A stretch of DNA of 38,580 nucleotides from contig JAOPWJ010000116.1 in assembly GCA_025965715.1 (NCBI GenBank), positions 1 through 38,580 on the forward strand, read 5' to 3'. Below, piece after piece: positions 4,694-38,293 of this stretch (its first letter is position 1; each line of letters opens with the position of its first letter). The notes under the pieces are model-generated. The model did no database searches, was not told where the DNA came from, and saw nothing but the letters and a program-made list of their open reading frames with translations. Both the position numbers and the translations under genes were made by a program. Origin of the DNA: Blastococcus sp. GTDB taxonomy: Bacteria > Actinomycetota > Actinomycetes > Mycobacteriales > Geodermatophilaceae.

Positions 4694-4711
4694 TTGTTCC
4701 TGCGTTCACAA
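4694..4711. promoter_or_regulatory. Rex operator (imperfect) upstream of rex-hem
   Basis: TTGTTCCTGCGTTCACAA has the 18-base layout of the actinobacterial Rex operator TTGTGAA-N4-TTCACAA. The right half is perfect and the left half keeps TTGT (11 of 14 fixed positions). It overlaps the putative -35 and spacer of the promoter for rex, as expected for autorepression relieved by high NADH/NAD+. Rex autoregulation of rex-hemACD is established in Streptomyces; here it is inferred. Confidence 0.65.
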
Positions 4712-4814: not shown

Positions 4815-5477
4815 GTGATCCAGCCGCGGCCCCGGACCATCCCGGAGGCCACCGTCGCCCGCCTGGCCGTGTACCTGCGGGCACTGAGCACCTTCTCCGA
4901 GGGTGGTCGGAGCACCGTCTCCTCCGGCGACCTCGCCGAGGCCGCCGGCGTCAACCCCGCCGGGCTGCGCAAGGACCTCTCCCACCTCGGTCCGTGTGGT
5001 GTCCGGGGCGTCGGCTACGAGGTGCGGACGCTGCGCGACCGCATCGCGCGTGTGCTGGGCGTCGAGCGGTCCCGGGCCTGCGTCCTCGTCGGGATCGGCA
5101 ACCTCGGGTCCGCGCTGGCCGACTACGCCGGCTTCGGGTCCCGCGGCTTCGAGTTCGTGGGGCTCTTCGACGCGGCGCCCGCCCGCATCGGGCAGCGCAT
5201 CGGTGGGCAGACGGTGCGGCCGCTGGATCAGCTCGCCGACGTGGTCGCCGCCACCCAGGCCTCCATCGGCGTCATCACGACACCGGCCGACGTCGCCCAG
5301 TCCGTCTGTGACCGGCTCGCCGCGGCCGGGGTGAGGAGCGTCTTGAACTTCGCGCCGGTCCCGCTCGTGGCGCCCGAGGGCGTCGACGTCCGCAAGGTCG
5401 ACCTGTCCGTCGAGCTGCAGGTCCTCGCCTTCCTCGGCCAGCAGCGGCTGGTCTCGGCGCTCGGTGAGCCGGCATGA
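4815..5477 (+). CDS. rex: Redox-sensing transcriptional repressor Rex
   Basis: 220 residues. The N-terminal winged helix starts at IPEATVARLAVYLRAL and contains VSSGDLAEAAGVNPAGLRKD, the DNA-reading helix region. The Rossmann domain has the NADH-binding VGIGNLGSALADY and the conserved VGLFDAAPARIG, then VLNFAPVPL and VDLSVELQVLAF for domain-swapped dimerisation. Rex binds operators when NADH is low and releases them when NADH/NAD+ rises, controlling respiratory genes. The GTG start gives the usual family N-terminus and has GTGGAGA ahead; an in-frame ATG at 4755 would add 20 residues of unlikely sequence. It overlaps hemA by ATGA, so repressor and heme genes are co-translated. Confidence 0.95.
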   Translation: MIQPRPRTIPEATVARLAVYLRALSTFSEGGRSTVSSGDLAEAAGVNPAGLRKDLSHLGPCGVRGVGYEVRTLRDRIARVLGVERSRACVLVGIGNLGSALADYAGFGSRGFEFVGLFDAAPARIGQRIGGQTVRPLDQLADVVAATQASIGVITTPADVAQSVCDRLAAAGVRSVLNFAPVPLVAPEGVDVRKVDLSVELQVLAFLGQQRLVSALGEPA

Positions 5478-26487: not shown

Positions 26488-27162
26488 GTGCGGGCCCGCG
26501 CCGTGTCTAGGGGACGGTTCGCCGACCGGCGCGACGCCGGCCGCGTCCTGGGGGAGCGGCTGGCGGCCACAGCACGCGAGGACGCCGTCGTCCTCGGTCT
26601 CCCGCGGGGCGGGGTGGTCGTCGCCGCAGAGGTGGCCGGCGTGCTCGCCGCACCGCTGGACGTGCTGGTCGTCCGCAAGCTCGGCCTCCCGTGGCAGCCC
26701 GAGCTCGCCATGGGTGCCATCGCCGCGGCAGGGGATGTCGTCGAGACGGTGCGCACGGAGGCGGTGCTCGCCCGTGCGCACGTCGATGACGACACGTTCG
26801 CTGCCGTCCGGGATCGGGAACTCGCGGAGCTGCGCCGGAGAGAGGCCGCCTACCGGGGCCAGCGGCCGGTGGTTCCGGTGACCGCCCGCGAGGTCCTCCT
26901 GGTGGACGATGGCCTGGCCACCGGCTCGACGATGCGCGCCGCCGTGCTCGCGGTGCGCCGCGGTGCGCCGCGCAGGATCACCGTCGCCGTGCCGATCGGG
27001 GCGCCCGCGGCCTGCGCGGCGCTGGAGCCCGACGTCGACGAGCTGGTCTGCCTGTGCGCGCCGCAGGCCTTCCGTGCGGTCGGCCAGGGCTACGCGGACT
27101 TCGCCCCCACCGTCGACGACGAGGTCCGCGCGGCCCTCGCCCGCCACGCGGGGATGTTGTGA
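26488..27162 (+). CDS. Phosphoribosyltransferase family protein
   Basis: 224 residues. The PRPP-binding loop EVLLVDDGLATGSTMRAAV has the two acidic residues and the TGST turn of type I phosphoribosyltransferases. The N-terminus (RDAGRVLGERLAATARED, AVVLGLPRGGVVVAAEVA) and VRKLGLPWQPELAMGAIA are typical of the stand-alone actinobacterial family whose substrate is unknown. A GTG at 26503 is an alternative start. It lies between the proline-rich ORF and the Rex operator that precedes the MenJ-like gene. Confidence 0.88.
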   Translation: MRARAVSRGRFADRRDAGRVLGERLAATAREDAVVLGLPRGGVVVAAEVAGVLAAPLDVLVVRKLGLPWQPELAMGAIAAAGDVVETVRTEAVLARAHVDDDTFAAVRDRELAELRRREAAYRGQRPVVPVTAREVLLVDDGLATGSTMRAAVLAVRRGAPRRITVAVPIGAPAACAALEPDVDELVCLCAPQAFRAVGQGYADFAPTVDDEVRAALARHAGML

Positions 27163-27209
27163 CCAAGGCCTCCGCGAGGGGGTGCTGTTTCGTCCGTCAC
27201 AGCCGGGCC

Positions 27210-27215
27210 TAGACT
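27210..27215 (+). promoter_or_regulatory. Putative -10 (TAGACT) upstream of the MenJ-like gene
   Basis: TAGACT fits TANNNT. The transcript would start near 27222, placing the perfect Rex operator at about +10 to +27, where a bound repressor could block elongation. The -35 is weak. Confidence 0.4.
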
Positions 27216-27230
27216 CGGATTCGACAGACC

Positions 27231-27248
27231 TTGTGAAGCTTTTCACAA
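27231..27248. promoter_or_regulatory. Perfect Rex operator
   Basis: TTGTGAAGCTTTTCACAA matches the actinobacterial Rex operator TTGTGAA-N4-TTCACAA at all 14 fixed positions and is a perfect inverted repeat outside the 4-base centre. It lies 33 bases before the GTG of the MenJ-like reductase and about 1.4 kb before nuoA. In Streptomyces, Rex controls nuo directly. Confidence 0.85.
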
Positions 27249-27280
27249 GCTCGCGAAGGACTCGAGGGGGTGCCCAGGTC

Positions 27281-28537
27281 GTGACCGTCGCCGACGTGAT
27301 CGTCGTGGGCGCAGGCCCGGCCGGCTCGAGCGCCGCATGGTGGTCGGCGCAGGCGGGCCTCGACGTGGTCGTGCTCGAGAAGGCGGCGTTCCCGCGCGAG
27401 AAGGTCTGCGGCGACGGGCTCACGCCCCGCGGGGTGAAGGCCCTCGACGACATGGGCATCGACACCTCGCCGGCCGCCGGTTGGACCCGGCACAAGGGTC
27501 TCCGCGTGCACGGCGGCGGTCAGGTGGTCGAGGTCGACTGGCCGCAACTGTCCCGCTGGCCGGACTACAGCCTCGTCCGTCCGCGTCGCGAGCTCGACGC
27601 CATGCTGGCGGCCCACGCCGAGGCGGCGGGCGCCCGCGTGCACACCGAGGTGACGGTCACCGAGCCCCTGCTGGACGACGCCGGCCGTGTCACCGGCGTG
27701 CGCGCCCACGCGGGCCCGGACAAGGAGCCGGTCACCTGGCGCGCGCCGCTGGTCGTCTCTGCCGAAGGGCTGTCCGGGCGGCTGGCGAAGTCCCTGGGAC
27801 TCGTCCGCCGGGAGGACCGGCCGCTCGGCATCGCCGTCCGGCGCTACGTGCGCACGCCGCGCACCGACGACGACTACCTCGACATCTCCTTCGACCTGAC
27901 CGAACAGGGTCCGTCCCGGGAGTCCATGCCCGGCTACGGATGGGTGTTCGGAATGGGCGACGGAACGGCGAACGTGGGGTTCGGCCTGCTGGACACCCGG
28001 CGCGCAACGGGCTCCGACCACCGCGAGACGCTGCGCCGCTGGCTGGCGACCTTTCCGCCCGAGGAGCAGCTCGGCGAGGAGTTCGCGGTCACCCCGCTGC
28101 GCGGTGCCGGCCTCCCGATGGCGTTGCACCGGCAGCCCGCCTACACCCGCGGCCTGCTGCTCACCGGCGACGCCGCGGGCACGGTGAACCCCTTCAACGG
28201 CGAGGGCATCAGCTACGCGATGGAGACCGGTCGCATGGCCGCGGAGACCGCGGCCGAGGCGCTCGCCGCTGCCGAGGGCCCGATCCGCGAGGGGGCGTTG
28301 CGCCGCTACCCCGCCCGGCTGAGCGCCGCATACGGCCGCCACCACCGCCTCGGCATGGGTTTCCTGGCCCTGCTGAGCCGCCCGGAGCTGGTCCGGTTCG
28401 CCACCGCGCACGGCCTCAAGCGCCCGGTGCTCGTGAACGCTGCGCTGCGGCTCATGGGCAATCTGTCCGATGGCCGGACCGGCGACGCCGTCGACCGGGC
28501 GGTCGCCGCCCTCACCCGACTTGCGCCGGCGGTCTGA
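27281..28537 (+). CDS. menJ: Geranylgeranyl reductase family flavoprotein, MenJ-like
   Basis: 418 residues. The FAD Rossmann motif VIVVGAGPAGSSAAWWSAQA is at the N-terminus, followed by CGDGLTPRGVKAL. The second FAD motif is LLLTGDAAGTVNPFNGEGI with YAMETGRMAAE after it. This matches mycobacterial MenJ, which saturates one isoprene unit of the menaquinone side chain at the membrane. Its place between men and nuo genes fits that role. Other family members act on carotenoid or archaeal lipid precursors, so the exact substrate is inferred. The GTG start is in frame with the family N-terminus; GAGGGGGT lies 11 bases upstream. Confidence 0.88.
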   Translation: MTVADVIVVGAGPAGSSAAWWSAQAGLDVVVLEKAAFPREKVCGDGLTPRGVKALDDMGIDTSPAAGWTRHKGLRVHGGGQVVEVDWPQLSRWPDYSLVRPRRELDAMLAAHAEAAGARVHTEVTVTEPLLDDAGRVTGVRAHAGPDKEPVTWRAPLVVSAEGLSGRLAKSLGLVRREDRPLGIAVRRYVRTPRTDDDYLDISFDLTEQGPSRESMPGYGWVFGMGDGTANVGFGLLDTRRATGSDHRETLRRWLATFPPEEQLGEEFAVTPLRGAGLPMALHRQPAYTRGLLLTGDAAGTVNPFNGEGISYAMETGRMAAETAAEALAAAEGPIREGALRRYPARLSAAYGRHHRLGMGFLALLSRPELVRFATAHGLKRPVLVNAALRLMGNLSDGRTGDAVDRAVAALTRLAPAV

Positions 28538-28563
28538 CATGCCTTGCCTCACACAAATGATCC

Positions 28564-28573
28564 GTGTCGACAC
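28564..28573. promoter_or_regulatory. 10-base palindrome ahead of nuoA
   Basis: GTGTCGACAC is a perfect palindrome in the 96-base gap between the MenJ-like gene and nuoA. It could be an operator; no known factor site is matched. Confidence 0.2.
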
Positions 28574-28620
28574 GCGCCGTCAACGCCTTGCCGTTACACG
28601 GAGCGTAATCGTCCTGACCG

Positions 28621-28626
28621 TAGGGT
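28621..28626 (+). promoter_or_regulatory. Putative nuoA -10 (TAGGGT)
   Basis: TAGGGT ends 7 bases before the nuoA ATG (and 4 before an in-frame GTG). That implies a leaderless nuo transcript in addition to any read-through from the Rex-operator promoter upstream. Confidence 0.4.
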
Positions 28627-28633
28627 GCCCGTG

Positions 28634-28996
28634 ATGCTCTCGACCTACGTCCCGATCCTCGGGTTGTTCGCCCTGGCCGCTGGATTTGCGATCTTCTCCG
28701 TGGCCGCCGCACCGCTCATCGGTCCCCGTCGCTATAACCGCGCGAAGCTGGACGCCTACGAGTGCGGGATCGAACCGGTGGACCAGCCCCTGACGGGCGG
28801 CCGTTTCCCGGTCAAGTACTACCTGACGGCGATGCTCTTCATCGTCTTCGACATCGAGATCGTCTTCCTCTACCCGTGGGCCGTCACCAACGACCGCCTG
28901 GGCATGGTCGGACTGGTCGAGATGGTCGTCTTCATCGGCACGGTGTTCATCGCGTACGCCTACGTCTGGCGTCGCGGCGGGCTCGAGTGGGACTGA
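28634..28996 (+). CDS. nuoA: NADH-quinone oxidoreductase subunit A
   Basis: 120 residues, three membrane helices. The conserved loop [22 protein letters not shown] and the acidic helix [17 protein letters not shown] are the family marks. It is part of the membrane arm of complex I at the junction with the quinone site. An in-frame GTG directly before the ATG is an alternative start. nuoB follows after 13 bases. Confidence 0.95.
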
Positions 28997-29009
28997 GAGA
29001 GAACTGATC

Positions 29010-29684
29010 ATGGGGCTCGAAGAGAAGCTGCCCAGCGGGGTCCTGTTGACCACCGTGGAGAAGCTGGTCAACTGGACGCGCAAGTCGTCGCTGTGGCCGG
29101 CGACGTTCGGCCTGGCGTGCTGCGCCATCGAGATGATGGCGTCGGGCGCCGGCCGCTACGACCTCGCCCGGTTCGGCATGGAGGTCTTCCGGGCCTCGCC
29201 GCGGCAGGCCGACCTGATGATCGTGGCCGGTCGCGTGAGCCAGAAGATGGCGCCGGTCCTGCGCCAGATCTATGACCAGATGCCCGAGCCTCGCTGGGTG
29301 CTCGCGATGGGTGTCTGCGCCAGCTCCGGCGGCATGTTCAACAACTACGCGATCGTGCAGGGCGTCGACCACATCGTGCCGGTGGACATGTACCTGCCGG
29401 GCTGCCCGCCGCGCCCGGAGATGCTGATGGACGCCATCCTCAAGCTGCACCACAAGATCCAGCACGAGCCGCTCGGTCCCAAGCGGGCCCGCCAGTTGGA
29501 GCGCCAGCGCGAAGACGGGACGGCGAAGAACCTGCACGTCGAGATGCCGTCGACGGTGCGCGTCGACAAGAACGCCCGGCGCGCCTACGAGGAGGCCGCC
29601 GCCCAGGGCCGCACCGGCCAGTTCAACATCGAGCAGCGGGGTGGCAACGCCGTTGTGCTGCCCGGTGCGGGAGATCGCAGATGA
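29010..29684 (+). CDS. nuoB: NADH-quinone oxidoreductase subunit B
   Basis: 224 residues. It carries cluster N2, the last iron-sulfur centre before quinone: Cys37-Cys38 in [11 protein letters not shown], Cys103 in [10 protein letters not shown] and Cys132 in [12 protein letters not shown]. The C-terminal 60 or so residues are a charged extension ([23 protein letters not shown]) also common in actinobacteria. It overlaps nuoC by ATGA. Confidence 0.96.
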
Positions 29685-30430
29685 GCAACGACGGCGGGGA
29701 GGTCCTACCGGGCCGCACGGAGGCCGGGTACGGCGACGCGACCGCCCCGTCCGGAGGTTTCCGGAAGGGCGCCTTCGGCGTCACGGGCAGCGGTGACACC
29801 TCCGGCTTCGGTGGTCTGGTCCGTGTCGAGCCCGGTGGGGCGGTCGCGCTGCACTCGACCGAGCGGCCCTACGGCGGGTATTTCGACGAGGTCACCGACG
29901 CCCTCATCGAGGCCGTAGGTCAGGCGACCTACGACGCCGCCGTCCAGCGCGTGCTCGTCGACCGCGGGGAGATCACCTACTTCGTCGCCCGTGAGCACCT
30001 GCTGACCCTCGTGCACGCTCTCCGGGACGACGATGCCCTGCGCTTCGAGCTCTGCAGCAGCGTCTCCGGAGTCGACTACCTCGACAGTGGCGGCCCCGCC
30101 GTGACCCCCGGGCGCCCGCGGCTGCACGTCGTCCTGCACCTCACCTCGATGACCTACCGCCGCCGGGTCCGGCTGGAGGTGGCGGTGACCGCCGAGGACC
30201 CGCACGTTCCGTCGGTGACCGGCATCTACCCGACGGCGGACTGGCACGAGCGGGAGACCTTCGACATGTTCGGGATCGTCTTCGACGGCCACCCGGCGCT
30301 CACCCGGATCCTCATGCCGGACGACTGGGACGGGCATCCGCAGCGCAAGGACTATCCGCTCGGCGGCGTCCCGGTCGAGTACCACGACGCCACCATCCCG
30401 CCCCCGGACACGCGCCGGGCCTACCGGTGA
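29681..30430 (+). CDS. nuoC: NADH-quinone oxidoreductase subunit C
   Basis: 249 residues. The core 30-kDa domain starts near [13 protein letters not shown] and has [12 protein letters not shown] and [19 protein letters not shown], then [20 protein letters not shown]. About 60 Gly-rich residues precede the core. It is separate from NuoD, as usual outside enterobacteria. Its stop codon is overlapped by the GTG of a 33-codon ORF that leads to nuoD. Confidence 0.95.
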
Positions 30431-30528
30431 TCGCGATGACGACGCCCGGGCGAGCATCGCAAGCAGCGCCGGCGACCGAGGACCGGAACGAGGCCGGAGA
30501 CGTGCACATGATTGGCCACCAGCTATGA
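30427..30528 (+). CDS. Putative 33-residue bridging ORF between nuoC and nuoD
   Basis: GTG overlaps the nuoC stop (GTGA) and its own TGA overlaps the nuoD start (ATGA). The frame is open across the whole gap and reads [20 protein letters not shown], then 13 more residues. It could keep ribosomes moving from nuoC to nuoD. The peptide has no recognisable domain, and the DNA contains a repeat element shared with the next gap, so peptide function is unproven. Confidence 0.35.
30452..30510 (+). repeat. Modular intergenic repeat, copy A (nuoC-nuoD gap)
   Basis: Contains GAGCATCGCA, CGACCGAG and CGGAGACG followed by ATG, in this order. The same three blocks recur in the same order in the nuoD-nuoE gap (31850-31931) with different spacing. 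No other copy was noticed in the window. Confidence 0.55.
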
Positions 30529-31847
30529 CGACGACACAGGATCCGTACGCCGGTTCCCGCGAGACCACCGAGGGCCGCGTCTACACCGTCACGGGCGGGG
30601 ACTGGGACGTCACCCTCGGCGCCGACCTGCAGGGCGCGGAGCGCCTCGTCGTCAACATGGGGCCGCAGCACCCGTCGACGCACGGGGTCCTCCGGCTCGT
30701 CCTCGACCTCGAGGGCGAGACGGTCACCAAGGCGCGGGTGGTGATCGGCTACCTGCACACCGGCATCGAGAAGAACACCGAGTACCGCAACTGGGTGCAG
30801 GGCACCACCTTCGTGACGCGGATGGACTACCTGGCCCCGCTGTTCAACGAGACCGGTTACTGCCTGGCCGTCGAGAAGCTCCTCGGCATCGAGGCCCCGC
30901 AGCGCGCGCAGACGATCCGCGTGCTGGTGTTGGAGCTCAACCGGATCGCCTCGCACCTGGTCGCGCTCGCCACCTTCGGCATGGAGATGGGCGCCCTCAC
31001 CGGAATGACCAACGGCTTCCGCGAGCGGGAGATGATCCTCGACCTGCTCGAGGAGATCACCGGCCTGCGGATGAACCACGCCTACGTCCGCCCCGGCGGC
31101 CTGGCGCAGGACCTGCCCGAGGGCTCCGTCGAGCACATCCGCGAGTTTCTCGAGGTGATGCCCAAGCGGGTCGCCGACTTCCATCGGCTGCTCACCGGTC
31201 AGCCCATCTGGCAGGCTCGGCTCAAGGACGCCGGCTACCTCGACGTCACCGGCTGCGTGGCCCTCGGCGTCACCGGCCCGATCCTGCGGGCCGCCGGGCT
31301 GCCGTGGGACCTCCGCAAGGTGGAGCCCTATCTGGGTTACGGAACCTATGACTTCGAGGTCCCGACCGCCGACACCTGCGACGCCTGGGGCCGCTATCTG
31401 GTCCGCATGGCCGAGGTGAACGAGTCGCTGAAGCTCATCGCCCAGGCCCTGGACCGGCTCGAGCCCGGTCCGGTGATGGTCGAGGACCGGAAGATCGCCT
31501 GGCCCGCGCAGCTGTCCCTGGGCGCCGACGGCATGGGCAACTCCCTCGAGCACGTCAAGAACATCATGGGCCAGTCGATGGAGGCCCTGATCCACCACTT
31601 CAAGCTGGTCACCGAGGGGTTCCGGGTGCCGGCCGGACAGGTGTACGTGCCCATCGAGTCCCCCCGCGGCGAGCTCGGCTACCACGTCGTCAGCGACGGC
31701 AGCACCCGTCCGTGGCGCGTGCACGTGCGCGACCCCAGTTTCGTGAACCTGCAGGCCACGGCCGCGATGAGCGAGGGCGGCATGATCGCCGACGTGATCG
31801 CCGCGATCGCCTCGATCGACCCCGTGATGGGGGGAGTCGACAGGTGA
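30525..31847 (+). CDS. nuoD: NADH-quinone oxidoreductase subunit D
   Basis: 440 residues. The 49-kDa subunit, which forms the quinone pocket with NuoB. Motifs: [19 protein letters not shown] (quinone-site His), [33 protein letters not shown], and the C-terminal [20 protein letters not shown] with DPVMGGVDR. Its length is normal for actinobacteria. It is flanked on both sides by short bridging ORFs instead of the direct overlaps seen elsewhere in the operon. Confidence 0.97.
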
Positions 31848-31951
31848 GTGAGCATCGCAGCCAGCGACCGAGCCGACAGCGAGTGGTCACAGGGCGCACG
31901 AGGAGCGGAGCGGCCGCGGAGACGACCCATGGACACGGAGTAGACCGCTGA
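31844..31951 (+). CDS. Putative 35-residue bridging ORF between nuoD and nuoE
   Basis: GTG overlaps the nuoD stop (GTGA), and its TGA shares a base with the nuoE ATG (TGATG). It reads [20 protein letters not shown], then an Ala/Thr/His/Gly-rich end. It is basic and shows no domain. As in the nuoC-nuoD gap, the open frame spans the gap exactly, which favours a coupling role over a functional peptide. Confidence 0.35.
31850..31931 (+). repeat. Modular intergenic repeat, copy B (nuoD-nuoE gap)
   Basis: Shares GAGCATCGCA, CGACCGAG and CGGAGACG plus ATG in order with copy A at 30452-30510. Between the second and third blocks it holds extra sequence including CACGAGGAGCGGAGCGGCCG, a style of GAGCG-rich intergenic repeat common in high-GC actinobacteria. 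Confidence 0.55.
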
Positions 31952-33024
31952 TGAGTGCACTTCCCGGATCGCCCGAGGCCGCGGCGACGACGGGTCTGGA
32001 CGACGGCCCTGTCCTGCCCGCGCCGATCGACCTGCCGCCGCTGACCGAGCGGACCCGCCTGGAGGCGCGCGAGATCATCGCGCGCTATCCCGTGCCGCGG
32101 TCGGCCCTGCTGCCGATGCTGCACCTGGTGCAGAGCTACCAGGGTTACGTCTCGCCCGAGGGGGTCGCACTCTGCGCGGAGGAGCTGGGCCTGACCAAGG
32201 CCGAGGTCGGCGCGGTGGCGACCTTCTACACGATGTACAAGCGCCGCCCGACCGGCCGGCACCTGGTCAGCGTCTGCACGAACACGCTGTGCAGCGTGCT
32301 CGGCGGCCAGCGGATCATGGATGCCCTCAGCGCCGACCTCGGCGTCCACCACGACGAGACCGCGGCCGACGGCTCCATCACCCTCGAGCACGCCGAGTGC
32401 CTCGCCGCGTGCGACTACGCGCCCGTGGTCACGGTCGACTACGAGTTCTACGACCAGCAGGACGTCGAGAGCGCCCGCGCCCTGGTCGCCGCGCTGCGCC
32501 GGGGCGAGAAGCCGGCGCCCACCCGCGGCGCCCCGCTGACCGACTTCCGTGGGATCTCGCGTCAGCTGGCCGGGTTCTCCCAGTACCCGGACGCGGCCGC
32601 CGCCGCCGCCGCGATCGATGCCCCGGGTGCCCTCGGCCCGACCCTGGTGGGGCTGCGGCTGGCCGAGGAGCGCGGGGAGTCGGCGCCGGCGATGCCGCAG
32701 CCCCCCTCCGCCTCCGCCTCCGCCGCCTCCTCGGGGGTGGACGCCGGCGAGTCGCGGGAGACGGTGCGTCCCTCGGGCGGCACCGGCGAGACGCCGGGAC
32801 AGGAGGCCGCCGAGGCACGTGTCGCGGCCGCCGACACCCCGGCCGAGAAGGCCGGCGCCGCCGGATCGCACCCGGACGCACCAGAGCCGGCCGGCCGGTC
32901 CCTCGCCGACCAGGACGACGGCACCGAGACCCCCGCCGGCCAGGAGCCGGGCACCAGCGGCCAGGGCCCCGCCGGACCCGGCCGCGTCGTCGAGGGCAAG
33001 AACACTCCCAAGCGGAAGAGCTGA
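31951..33024 (+). CDS. nuoE: NADH-quinone oxidoreductase subunit E with a long C-terminal tail
   Basis: 357 residues; the core is complete by about 210. The 2Fe-2S cluster N1a ligands are Cys109 and Cys114 (VCTNTLCSVL) and Cys150 and Cys154 (ECLAACDYAPV). The thioredoxin-like core starts near REIIARYPVPRSALLPML. From about 215 on, the protein is low-complexity, Ala/Pro/Glu/Gly-rich and acidic until a basic end (KNTPKRKS). Such tails occur in actinobacterial NuoE, but this one is long, about 140 residues. The coupled order nuoE-nuoF is standard (3-base gap). Confidence 0.95.
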   Translation: MSALPGSPEAAATTGLDDGPVLPAPIDLPPLTERTRLEAREIIARYPVPRSALLPMLHLVQSYQGYVSPEGVALCAEELGLTKAEVGAVATFYTMYKRRPTGRHLVSVCTNTLCSVLGGQRIMDALSADLGVHHDETAADGSITLEHAECLAACDYAPVVTVDYEFYDQQDVESARALVAALRRGEKPAPTRGAPLTDFRGISRQLAGFSQYPDAAAAAAAIDAPGALGPTLVGLRLAEERGESAPAMPQPPSASASAASSGVDAGESRETVRPSGGTGETPGQEAAEARVAAADTPAEKAGAAGSHPDAPEPAGRSLADQDDGTETPAGQEPGTSGQGPAGPGRVVEGKNTPKRKS

Positions 33025-33027
33025 CCG

Positions 33028-34356
33028 ATGCCCCTCACTCCCGTCCTCACCACCCGGTGGGGCGCCGACCAGTCGTGGCGGCTCAAGACCTACGAGCAGC
33101 TCGAGGGCTACGCGGCGCTGCGCACGGCGCTGTCGATGACCCCGGACGCACTCGTGACCATGGTCAGGGACTCGGGCCTGCGCGGCCGAGGTGGCGCCGG
33201 GTTCCCCACGGGCATGAAGTGGAGCTTCATTCCGCAGCCCAAGCCGGGGGAGACGCCGAGCGGCCCCGCTGCGATGCCCAAGTACCTCGTCGTCAACGCC
33301 GACGAGGGCGAGCCCGGTACCTGCAAGGACCTGCCGTTGATGATGGCCGATCCGCACTCGCTCATCGAGGGCGTGATCATCGCCTCGTACGCGATCCGGT
33401 CGCACCTGGCTGTCATCTACGTCCGTGGGGAGGCGGTGCACGCGCACCGCCGCCTGGTCAGCGCCGTCGAGGAGGCGTACGCGGCCGGCTACCTCGGCAG
33501 CGACGTCCTCGGGAGCGGCTACGGCCTGGAGCTGATCGTGCACGCGGGCGCCGGCGCCTACATCTGCGGTGAGGAGACGGCGCTGCTCGACTCCCTCGAG
33601 GGCTACCGCGGCCAGCCCCGGCTCAAGCCGCCGTTCCCCGCGGTGGCCGGTCTCTACGGTGCCCCGACGGTGATCAACAACGTCGAGACACTGGCCAGCG
33701 TGCCGTTCGTCGTCCGGGGCGGTCCGGAGTGGTTCAAGGCTTTCGGGCCGGAGAAGTCGCCGGGCCCGAAGATCTACTCGCTCTCGGGCCGGGTCGTCCG
33801 CCCCGGGCAGTACGAGGCCCCGATGGGGACGACGATGCGCGAGCTCCTCGAGATGGCCGGCGGGGTCCGCCCCGGCCACGAGCTCAAGTTTTGGACGCCG
33901 GGCGGCTCCTCGACGCCGTACTTCACCGCCGAGCACCTCGACGTGCCGCTGGACTTCGACTCGGTGGCGGCGGCGGGCTCCATGCTCGGCACCACGGCCC
34001 TGATGGTCTTCGACGAGACCGACTCGATCGTCGAGGCGACGCTGCGGTTCACCGAGTTCTACGCGCACGAGAGCTGCGGCAAGTGCACTCCCTGTCGGGA
34101 GGGCACCTACTGGCTGGTCCAGATCCTCGAGCGCCTGGTCGAGGGGCGTGGCCGCGCCGCCGACCTCGACCTGCTGATCGACACCTGCGACAACATCCTG
34201 GGCCGCTCGTTCTGCGCCCTCGGTGACGGCGCGACGAGCTGCATCTCCAGCTCGCTGAAGTACTTCAAGGACGACTACGTCGCCCTGCTGCCCCCCGAGG
34301 AGCAGGCCCGGCTGGGTCGTTCCCTCCGCATCGAGCCCGTGGGAGTTGCGTCGTGA
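33028..34356 (+). CDS. nuoF: NADH-quinone oxidoreductase subunit F
   Basis: 442 residues. It binds NADH and FMN and passes electrons to cluster N3. The NADH/FMN region is [17 protein letters not shown] (53-69) with [12 protein letters not shown] and [19 protein letters not shown]. The 4Fe-4S ligands are in [13 protein letters not shown] (Cys350, 353, 356) and [10 protein letters not shown]. The presence of NuoE, F and G means this complex I oxidises NADH, unlike reduced complexes that use ferredoxin. It overlaps nuoG by GTGA. Confidence 0.97.
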
Positions 34357-36827
34357 CACTGACGCCCACCAATCCGACTCCTGCGCCGGCGGTGCCGCCG
34401 GGCGCGCCCGGTCCGCACACGCCGCCGGATGCGGTCCGCTGCACGATCGACGGTTTCGACGTCGCCGTGCCGAAGGGAACGCTGATCATCCGCGCGGCCG
34501 AGCAGATCGGCGTGTTCATCCCGCGGTTCTGCGACCACCCGCTGCTCGAGCCGGTCGGCGCCTGCCGCCAGTGCCTGGTCGAGGTGGAGGGCCAGCGCAA
34601 GCCGGTGGCCAGCTGCACCATGCCGGTCACCGAGGGCATGGCGGTCAAGACGCAGCTCACCAGTTCGGTGGCCGACAAGTCGCAGCAGGGCACGATGGAG
34701 CTGCTGCTGATCAACCACCCCCTCGACTGCCCGACCTGCGACAAGGGCGGCGAGTGCCCGCTGCAGAACCAGGCGCTGAGCAACGGGCGCACCGACAGCC
34801 GGTTCGTCGACGAGAAGCGGACGTATCCCAAGCCGCTGCCGATCAGCAGCCAGATCCTGCTCGACCGCGAGCGCTGCGTGCTGTGTGCGCGCTGCACCCG
34901 CTTCTCCCAGCAGGTGGCCGGCGACCCCTTCATCGAGCTGTTCGAGCGGGGCGCGCTCGAGCAGGTCGCCATCTACGAGGACGAGCCCTTCGAGTCCTAC
35001 TTCTCGGGCAACACCACGCAGATCTGCCCGGTCGGCGCCCTCACCAGCGCCCAGTACCGGTTCCGGGCGCGCCCCTTCGACCTCCGCAGCGAGGACAGCG
35101 CCTGCGAGCACTGCGCGTCCGGCTGCGCCATGCGGACCGACTACCGGCGCGGCCGGGTCACCCGCCGGCTCGCCCGTGAGGACCCGGCGGTCAACGAGGA
35201 GTGGACCTGCGACAAGGGGCGGTACGCGTTCCGCTACGCCACCTCCAACGAGCGTCTGACCACCCCGCTGGTCCGCCGGGACGGTGAGCTTCAGCCGGCG
35301 TCCTGGCCCGAGGCCTGGGCCGCTGCGGCGACCGGACTCCTGGCGGCTCGTGCGGACGGCGGCGTCGGCGTGCTGCCCGGTGGCCGGCTGACCGTCGAGG
35401 ACGCCTACGCCTACGCCAAGTTCGCCCGCGTGGTGCTCGGCACCAACGACGTCGACATGCGCGCGCGGGCCCATTCCGCGGAGGAGGCGGCCTTCCTCGC
35501 CGCCGCCGTTGCCGGCACCGGTCCGGGCACCGGTGCCGTCACCTACGACGACCTCTCCGCCGCCTCGGCCGTCCTGCTCGCGGGGTTCGAGCCGGAAGAG
35601 GAGTCGCCGATCGTCTTCCTGCGGCTGCGCCGGGCGGTGCGCACCACGGGTCTGCCGGTCTTCGACATGGCACCGTTCGCCACCCGCGCGGCTCAGAAGC
35701 TGGACGCCACCGTGCTGACGACGCTGCCCGGCGGTGAGGCGCAGTCCCTGCGCGCGCTCGCAGAGGGCACGTGGGGCGGTCCTGCCCTGGAGGCGCTGAA
35801 GGCTCCGGGCGCCGTCGTGCTCGCCGGCGAGCGGCTGGCCGAGGTGCCCGGCGCATTCTCCGCGCTCCTCGCCCTCGCCCGCGCCACCGGCGCCCGGGTC
35901 GCCTGGGTCCCGCGCCGGGCGGGGGAGCGCGGCGCCGTCGAGGCCGGCGCGCTGCCGAACCTGCTTCCCGGTGGTCGGAGCGTCGGGGACGCCGTCGCCC
36001 GTGCCGAGGTCGGTGCGGTGTGGGGCATCGAATCCGGTGCGCTGCCCTCCACGCCTGGGCGCGACGCCACCGGGATCCTCACCGCCCTCCGGGACGGCGA
36101 GCTCTCCGGGCTTGTCGTCGGTGGCGTCGACCCCGCCGACCTGCCCGACCCGGCGCTGGCCAACGCGGCACTGGCCGCGGCCGGCTTCGTGGTGAGCCTG
36201 GAGATGTTCCCCACTGCGGTCACCGAGTGGGCCGACGTGGTCCTGCCGGTCGCGGCCGCCTCGGAGAAGGCCGGCAGCTACCTCGACTGGGAGGGCCGGG
36301 TCCGCTCCTTCGACGCCACCCTGCACGGCACCGGCCGGCTGCCGGACGGGCGTGTGCTGCACGGCCTGGCCGAGGAGATGGACGCCGATCTGCGGTTGCC
36401 CGCGCCCGAGGCGGCTCGCGCCGAGCTCGCCGCGCTGGGCGCCGTCCGCCGTCCGGGCGAGGGCGAAGGGCTCGACGTCCGGCCTGCCCCCGTGCACGCG
36501 GTCGAGGGCGAGACCGCCCTGCTCGCGTCCTGGCGGCAGCTGCTCGACGTCGGCACGCTGCAGCGCGACGAGGTGGAGCTGTCCGGCACCGCCCGGCCGC
36601 CGGTGGCCCGGATCGGACCGGACGCCGCGGCCCGGCTGGGCGTCGTCGACGGCGACCGGCTCACGGTCGGCGGGGCCACCGGAGCGATCACCTTGCCGGT
36701 GCAGATCACGCCGATGCCCGACCACGTGGTGTGGCTGCCGATGAGATCACCGGGGAGCGAGGTGCGCTCCGACCTCGGGACTGCGCCCGGTGGTGTCGTT
36801 CGGCTGAGCGCTGGAGGTCTCCTGTGA
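34353..36827 (+). CDS. nuoG: NADH-quinone oxidoreductase subunit G
   Basis: 824 residues. The N-terminal ferredoxin-like part holds the 2Fe-2S cluster ([19 protein letters not shown], then a Cys in VASCTMPV). Next comes the His-ligated 4Fe-4S site [17 protein letters not shown] and a second 4Fe-4S site [10 protein letters not shown] with ICPVGALTS. An additional set, [15 protein letters not shown] followed 27 residues later by Cys in [12 protein letters not shown], fits the off-path cluster N7. The remainder is a molybdopterin-oxidoreductase-like domain without a cofactor role. It overlaps nuoF and nuoH by 4 bases each. Confidence 0.95.
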
Positions 36828-38293
36828 ACCTGCTCGCGAGCGCCGACCAGCCGACGCTGGAGGATTTCGGGCACGACGTCTGGTGGATCGTCCTCATCAA
36901 GGTCGTCGGCATCTTCGCCGTGCTGGTCTTCATGACGCTCTTCGCGATCGTCTTCGAGCGCAAGGTCGTCGCGCGGATGCAGCAGCGGATCGGCCCGAAC
37001 CGGGTCGGCTGGCACGGCTACCTGCAGAGCCTGGCCGACGGCCTGAAGCTCGCCTTCAAGGAAGACATCATGCCGGCGCTCGCCGACAAGCCGGTGTACT
37101 TCCTGGCCCCGGTGCTGGCCACCATCCCGGCGTTCATCGCCTTCTCGGTGATCCCGCTGGGCCCGACGGTGAGCATCTTCGGCCAGCGGACCCCCCTGCA
37201 GCTCACCGATGCCCCGATCGGCGTGCTGGTCGTCCTCGCCTGCTCGGCGATGGGCATCTACGGCATCGTGCTCGGGGGCTGGGCGTCGGGCTCGACGTAC
37301 CCGCTGCTGGGCTCCCTGCGCAGCGCCGCCCAGATGGTCAGCTACGAGATCGCGATGGGCCTGTCCATCGTCGCGGTGTTCCTCTACTCCGGCACGATGT
37401 CGACCTCCGAGATCGTCGCCGCCCAGGCCCACGGCAACCAGCTGTCGTTCTTCGGCTGGGAGTTCACCGGGCCGAGCTGGTTCGCCCTGCTGCTGCCGGT
37501 CTCCTTCGTCATCTACGCCATCGCGGTGGTGGGCGAGACCAACCGTGCTCCCTTCGACCTCCCGGAGGCCGAGAGCGAGCTCGTCGGCGGCTTCCACACC
37601 GAGTACTCGTCGCTGAAGTTCGCGCTGTTCTTCCTCGCCGAGTACGTCAACATGGTCACCGTCTCGGCGCTGGCCGCGACGCTGTTCCTCGGCGGCTGGC
37701 GGGCGCCGTGGCCCATCTCGATCTGGGACGGCGCGAACACCGGCTGGTGGCCGCTGCTGTGGTTCTTCCTCAAGGTCGTCGTGGCGCTGTTCATCTTCAT
37801 CTGGCTCCGCGGCACGCTGCCCCGGCTGCGCTACGACCAGTTCATGCGCTTCGGCTGGAAGGTGCTGGTCCCCACCGCGCTGGTATGGATCCTCGCCGTC
37901 GCGACCATGCGGACCGTCGCCCGGGAGGCGGACCTCTCCACCGGTGAGGTCGCGCTGTACGTGGGAGTGCCGATCGCCCTGGTCGTCATGGCTGTGCTCC
38001 TCCTCGCCAGCCGTGCCGCCCACCGGGACACCCGCCTGGCCGCGGTCGAGGCGGCCGCGGGCTCCAACCACCCGACCCAGCCGGAGCCGGAGATCCTTCC
38101 GCCGACCGGCCCGCGGCGGCGGCCCACGGGTGCGCCCAGCAGGGCCGAGGGCGGCTTCCCCATTCCGCCGATGGATCTGAAGGTGCCGCCGTCCCCACGG
38201 CTGCGCCGGGAACCGGTGACGCCGGACGGTTCGGCCGTGGTGGGCACGGGACGTCGAGGCTCGACCAGCGCAAAGGAGCACGGCGATGTCTGA
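36824..38293 (+). CDS. nuoH: NADH-quinone oxidoreductase subunit H with a C-terminal extension
   Basis: 489 residues; about eight membrane helices end near residue 398. Quinone-channel signatures are [34 protein letters not shown], and [20 protein letters not shown] with [16 protein letters not shown]. The final 90 or so residues are a cytoplasmic Pro/Arg-rich tail ([36 protein letters not shown]), also seen in Streptomyces NuoH. The GTG has GGAGG at 8 bases and overlaps nuoG; the stop overlaps nuoI by 8 bases. Confidence 0.95.

Follow-up and report, generated by a model that had tools for sequence, protein, structure and literature searches.

When a perfect Rex-type palindrome stands in front of a reductase gene that is itself followed by the genes of complex I, which of these genes does it control, and what is the reductase? 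The question arises in a 38,580-nucleotide stretch of DNA from Blastococcus sp. (contig JAOPWJ010000116.1), referred to here as the window, where TTGTGAAGCTTTTCACAA forms a perfect palindrome at positions 27231-27248 (no strand assigned) and is predicted to be a Rex operator. A sequence-only reading had singled out this site, and it holds: the palindrome fits the Rex-operator consensus TTGTGAANNNNTTCACAA at 14/14 fixed positions, with 0 mismatches. The layout claimed for it was also recovered, the operator lying 5' of a reductase gene and nuoA following on the same strand, 1.39 kb past the operator. The reductase gene, ggr (27281..28537, + strand, TIGR02032), encodes a nuo-linked flavoprotein of the geranylgeranyl reductase family of 418 aa and starts with GTG at 27281, 32 nt after the operator, and nuoA starts at 28634, 96 nt after ggr. 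The first complex I genes, nuoA to nuoG (28634..36827, + strand), were assigned with NCBIfam models and start at 28634 (nuoA), 29010 (nuoB), 29681 (nuoC), 30525 (nuoD), 31951 (nuoE), 33028 (nuoF) and 34353 (nuoG). The earlier claim of a run from nuoA to nuoI therefore stands as far as nuoG by family models; nuoH and nuoI were not confirmed, the one ORF tried for them (36883-37947) having no family-model hit.

The motif is rare in the genome to which the window belongs. In the assembly searched (3.55 Mb, 263 contigs, 80% complete), positions 27231-27248 were the sole place with up to 2 mismatches, and the reversed control gave 0. With up to 3 mismatches there were 9 places versus 6 in the control, so this level is mostly noise, and these places offer no evidence of a wider regulon. 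Within the window, two matches were found at up to 3 mismatches, against a shuffle mean of 0.09.

The presumed regulator is encoded in the window, on the same contig as the operator. The rex gene (4815..5477, + strand) scores 326 bits with NF003992 (cut-off 226), lies above the cut-off of PF06971 and is followed by hemA at 5474; its GTG start at 4815 is the analyst's choice in a frame open from 4716. The product resembles solved Rex chains over nearly its full length, with E values down to 1e-41, and has in common with them an RKDLS stretch and a VGxGxLGSALADY loop, for which we assume roles in DNA and NAD binding. Ahead of rex, at 4694..4711 (no strand assigned), lies a Rex-operator-like site, TTGTTCCTGCGTTCACAA, with 3 mismatches and one half intact, which is weak when taken alone, since 3-mismatch places are equally common in the control. 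The genome G024 has a 1-mismatch site by the start of rex (L108, base 2152), which suggests a self-control of rex that would have decayed in the window.

Conservation in the family Geodermatophilaceae, which the earlier reading had put forward as a check, supports the site: the operator is kept with at most 1 mismatch in 74/76 family genomes and occurs at exactly one place in 68 of the 76 at this threshold. The two genomes without the motif are G016 (76% complete) and G033 (74% complete). The operator's spacer of 4 nt is variable and its arms are kept. A nuo-linked reductase was found at E <= 1e-60 in 60/76 genomes, and 70 loci could be read, all except those of G005, G010, G016, G033, G056 and G071, which have no reductase match and in which the sites are fragmentary, missing or not listed. 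Three arrangements were distinguished among these loci. In the A type, which includes the window, the order is operator-ggr-nuoA (42/70; 34 operators perfect, 8 with 1 mismatch). In the B type it is ggr-operator-nuoA (18/70, all operators perfect), and in the C type the operator precedes nuoA and ggr is missing (10/70, all perfect). Among 79 named loci, the B type occurs in Klenkia, Goekera, Modestobacter sp. Leaf380 and part of Geodermatophilus (14 loci). The A loci and the B loci of Geodermatophilus have menG and a phosphoribosyltransferase gene upstream in common, so in Geodermatophilus it was apparently the operator, not the reductase, that moved. Some loci carry further copies of the motif: G018 has two 1-mismatch operators 24 bp apart before ggr (L090, bases 1980-2021), and at the C-type loci L093, L094, L095 and L100 the perfect site is followed, at a distance of 23 bp, by another with 2 mismatches. 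Operator-like sites with 0-1 mismatch also lie away from ggr and nuo in groups g6, g9 and g11 (L102-L107, L109, L110). One linked reductase gene (G008:C168:9643-10893) contains an in-frame TAG and may be a pseudogene or reflect a sequencing error.

The position of the operator relative to a promoter-like element is also kept. In the window it stands 15 nt after TAGACT (27210..27215, + strand), the presumed -10 element of a promoter called here P1. The distance from the end of TAnnnT to the operator is 11-15 nt in 41/42 A-type family loci and 9 nt in the remaining one, and 12-14 nt in 18/18 B-type loci; 9/10 C-type loci also have TAnnnT before the operator. In the wider survey of the class described below, TAnnnT lies 11-16 nt before the operator in 46/64 loci, where 1.6 would be expected from mononucleotide shuffles. 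Because of this fixed spacing, transcription probably starts just before the operator, near 27222 in the window, which would place the operator at about +9 to +26, and Rex would then block the initial transcribed stretch. The operator is thus found, and conserved, in what is predicted from the DNA sequence to be the promoter region of a respiratory and redox unit. A terminator-like hairpin at 27168-27183 (1 found versus 0.4 expected from shuffles) lies between a phosphoribosyltransferase-like gene and P1 and would separate the ggr-nuo unit from the preceding genes.

The survey was extended to the class Actinomycetes, where nuoA was found in 112/118 genomes searched. Leaving aside the locus of the window and that of G135, which lies at a contig edge, 110 loci were read, and the reductase adjoins nuoA in 69 of them. 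An operator with up to 2 mismatches was found within 250 nt before the reductase in 63/66 of these loci, the 66 being those of the 69 with at least 250 nt of sequence before the reductase. The three misses are L227, in whose genome no rex was detected, L270, whose genome has rex, and L301, with a perfect site 294 nt upstream, just beyond the 250-nt limit. Both controls, the reversed pattern and a window placed inside the reductase gene, gave 0/66. That the palindrome is a functionless product of chance therefore deserves almost no credence: this idea is contradicted by the shuffles (mean 0.09), by the class controls (0/66 versus 63/66) and by the class-wide conservation itself, and it was rejected. 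Apart from the family group of the window, 21 others have the order operator-ggr-nuoA. The operator lies directly before nuoA in the Streptomyces-like group f18 (9/9) and in groups f20, f24, f27, f29 and f31, and in groups f2 and f23, of 8 genomes each, both the linked reductase and an operator before nuoA are missing. In 22 named loci, including those of Tessaracoccus, Flaviflexus and Bifidobacteriaceae, ggr is beside nuoA and there is no operator at up to 2 mismatches. Given the distribution of the arrangements in the class and the family, the A type is probably ancestral and the B type derived, and operator-ggr-nuo is probably a widespread and ancestral unit in Actinomycetes.

Whether an operator placed before ggr also reaches nuo depends on what lies between the two genes. 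The window has no terminator-like site there. It has a second putative promoter, P2 (28605..28626, + strand), whose TAGGGT (28621-28626) ends only seven nt before the ATG of nuoA at 28634, hence presumably leaderless. In relatives a GTGA-N6-TCAC element lies between the -35 and -10 of P2; it was seen at 30/33 A-type family loci whose ggr-nuoA gap is long, and the copy in the window is degraded. The pattern TAGGxT-N5-9-rTG was found in 32 of these 33 loci, in 2/10 C-type loci, and in neither the A-type loci with a short gap (0/7) nor the B-type loci (0/18). These counts refer to the 40 gaps available among the 42 A-type loci (33 long, 7 short), the other 2 having no nuoA on the contig. Two C loci, G019 from the genus of the window and G069 (g12), have both operator and P2, only the reductase being missing between them. 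The idea that P2 marks a wider regulon was discarded, the pattern occurring at a single place in 11/12 genomes searched; in the genome of the window the search returned no place, P2 being degraded there. Scanning 27100-29100 for consensus promoters returned a single hit, at 28534-28561 (0.1 expected).

The conservation of P2 in 32/33 long-gap loci speaks for an alternative in which the operator governs ggr alone and nuo, in A-type genomes, is driven by P2 and free of Rex. In A-type genomes such as that of the window, most nuo transcripts could originate at P2, but as an account of the operator this alternative is unlikely. P2 is absent from 7/7 short-gap loci (27-69 nt), which leaves nuo at these loci without another recognised promoter nearby. 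The operator is kept, perfect in every case, before nuoA in the 10/10 family loci that lack the reductase, and control of nuo by Rex is proven in S. avermitilis, according to the available part of PMC5355995. Moreover, a reductase belonging to the linked clade described below occurs in two of the six class genomes without a detected nuoA, G077 and G186, which both have rex, and no site with up to 2 mismatches was found within about 1.5 kb of this gene. As the operator is kept without the reductase and is absent beside a reductase without nuoA, nuo is the constant target. The reductase would be an optional one, covered when it is situated within the unit, and nuo is probably reached from P1 by read-through. 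An operator serving the reductase alone was rejected on account of the same 10/10 loci, of G077 and G186, and of the 18/60 family loci in which the operator lies between reductase and nuoA, leaving the reductase outside the unit. The emphasis that the earlier reading placed on the reductase was right in that the predicted operator lies in the presumed promoter before that gene; it has to be reversed, with complex I as the constant target, since the operator persists where the reductase has been lost and comes after it in those 18 loci.

The occurrence of the site also follows that of its presumed regulator. A rex gene above the family cut-off was found in 62/80 chosen genomes, of which 73 could be scored for rex and operator, six having no nuoA and one too little sequence. 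An operator before ggr or nuoA was present in 54/58 scored genomes with rex versus 0/15 without it. The p-value, 2.7e-12, exaggerates the strength of this association, since the genomes were hand-picked and related, and the choice included all f2 and f23 genomes known to lack an operator before nuo. One of the genomes without detected rex, G081, has kept ggr-nuoA and has no detected operator. Because the motif of the Crp family has the same GTGA-N6-TCAC core, the palindrome might be bound by such a regulator instead of Rex, and the four genomes that have rex and no operator before ggr or nuoA (G144, G102, G167 and G177) would fit this idea. These four also count against a general pairing of rex and operator, as do, as far as their genomes carry rex, the 22 named loci mentioned above. 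Nevertheless, conservation extends over the full TTGTGAAN4TTCACAA, and none of the 15 scored genomes without detected rex, G081 included, has the site, which makes another regulator very improbable, and Rex remains the preferred candidate.

The reductase had been named MenJ, like the menaquinone reductase of Mycobacterium tuberculosis, and this name has to be withdrawn. The product of ggr passes TIGR02032, for the geranylgeranyl reductase superfamily (244.8 bits, cut-off 158.8), and fails NF045655, the MenJ equivalog (231.3 bits, cut-off 700). The MenJ-type gene of the same genome lies on another contig (C141:1015-2232, L325) and scores 632 bits, below 700 but far nearer; genes above this cut-off were found in only 2/60 genomes. 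In a reductase tree of 86 rows, made by a quick method and unrooted, one branch with an SH-aLRT of 100 divides 48 linked-clade sequences, including that of the window, from 38 of MenJ type, among them C141:1015-2232. Orthology with MenJ is therefore rejected on both the score and the placement, and the gene in the window is, on these sequence comparisons, a member of a separate nuo-linked reductase clade, a paralog of MenJ. The two also differ in their surroundings, as the best site in the -500..+40 region of the 38 MenJ-type loci (two of which are one and the same gene, upstream regions being taken from mapped gene starts), including that of the same genome, has at least 5 mismatches. At one of them, L313, a place with 2 mismatches lies 2.1 kb after the gene start. 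Among 60 hand-picked genomes, each with at least one of the clades, 20 have both, 23 the linked clade only and 17 the MenJ type only, a split that is no estimate of frequency. The presence of one or both clades in each genome suggests an overlapping function. MenJ and the ggr product belong to the same flavoprotein superfamily and probably have a similar menaquinone-tail chemistry, and the linked reductase probably saturates the menaquinone tail. The main menaquinone of Geodermatophilaceae is MK-9(H4), and MenJ was reported in all genomes studied by BLAST with the mycobacterial protein, according to the available part of PMC9686282; the MenJ of that report is taken here to be the other, MenJ-type gene and not the nuo-linked one.

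Part of this system has been described in other Actinomycetes. In S. avermitilis, gel shift, ChIP and footprinting established that Rex represses nuoA1-N1 and is released by NADH, and Rex bound less well to probes with 3 mismatches than to probes with 1-2 (available part of PMC5355995). The window has the same operator consensus and the same main target, complex I. The nuoA1 promoter of S. avermitilis, however, has its site at -42 to -16, whereas in the window the site lies before the reductase, probably downstream of the transcription start, like the S. avermitilis cydA1 site, which was footprinted at -3 to +25 (PMC5355995, same part). In the Streptomyces-like group f18 the reductase, where found, is 1.7-4.3 kb upstream and outside the unit, unlike in the window. 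The gene pairing of the window resembles that of Actinomyces oris, where a geranylgeranyl reductase gene, ggr, which adjoins ubiE, was counted in the nuo locus, and transposon hits in ggr and nuo gave a common phenotype; the available part of PMC5478893 makes no mention of Rex or its operator. Among the matches listed in the literature search, no paper joined Rex to a nuo-linked reductase, and the available parts of PMC4172946 and PMC5765111 hold nothing on point, an earlier description being possible.

Here it is proposed, with high confidence, that the palindrome is a working Rex operator, that a P1 transcript beginning with ggr continues into the nuo genes, and that NADH relieves the repression. 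At low NADH/NAD+, Rex would occupy the site just downstream of the P1 start and block P1. As NADH builds up, for example under low oxygen, Rex would be released, and complex I and the reductase would be made together. Complex I re-oxidises NADH. In Blastococcus-like genomes, P2 at nuoA could give a basal, Rex-free supply of complex I. What the sequence comparisons themselves establish is the site, its promoter-like spacing, its conservation, its joint occurrence with rex, the order of the genes and the keeping of the site with nuo. Binding by Rex, the response to NADH, read-through into nuo, how strong P2 is and what the reductase acts on are the parts of this scheme that we infer.

Rex, and nuo as its target, were already known; according to the literature searched, what appears to be new is the operator-ggr-nuo unit, with the reductase as the first gene of a Rex unit. 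In such a unit, the composition of the electron carrier would be linked to the enzyme from which it receives electrons. A caution in naming also follows, as the nuo-side reductase should not be called MenJ, and a MenJ-type gene may lie elsewhere in the same genome. A broader proposal, to which we give somewhat less than even credence, is that in many families of Actinomycetes a single Rex operator governs complex I and also how far the menaquinone tail is saturated. Under this tentative proposal the linked reductase would be a second menaquinone saturase, the sole one detected in many genomes, hydrogenation of the quinone pool would follow NADH/NAD+, and lineages that also have a MenJ-type gene could lose the linked reductase or shift the operator to its far side. 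If true, such a loss or shift would free quinone tailoring from redox control and leave complex I under it. The family, with the operator before ggr, after ggr or with ggr absent, offers natural experiments for the effect on quinone hydrogenation. A single sensor may thus adjust the first pump of the respiratory chain in concert with its electron carrier.
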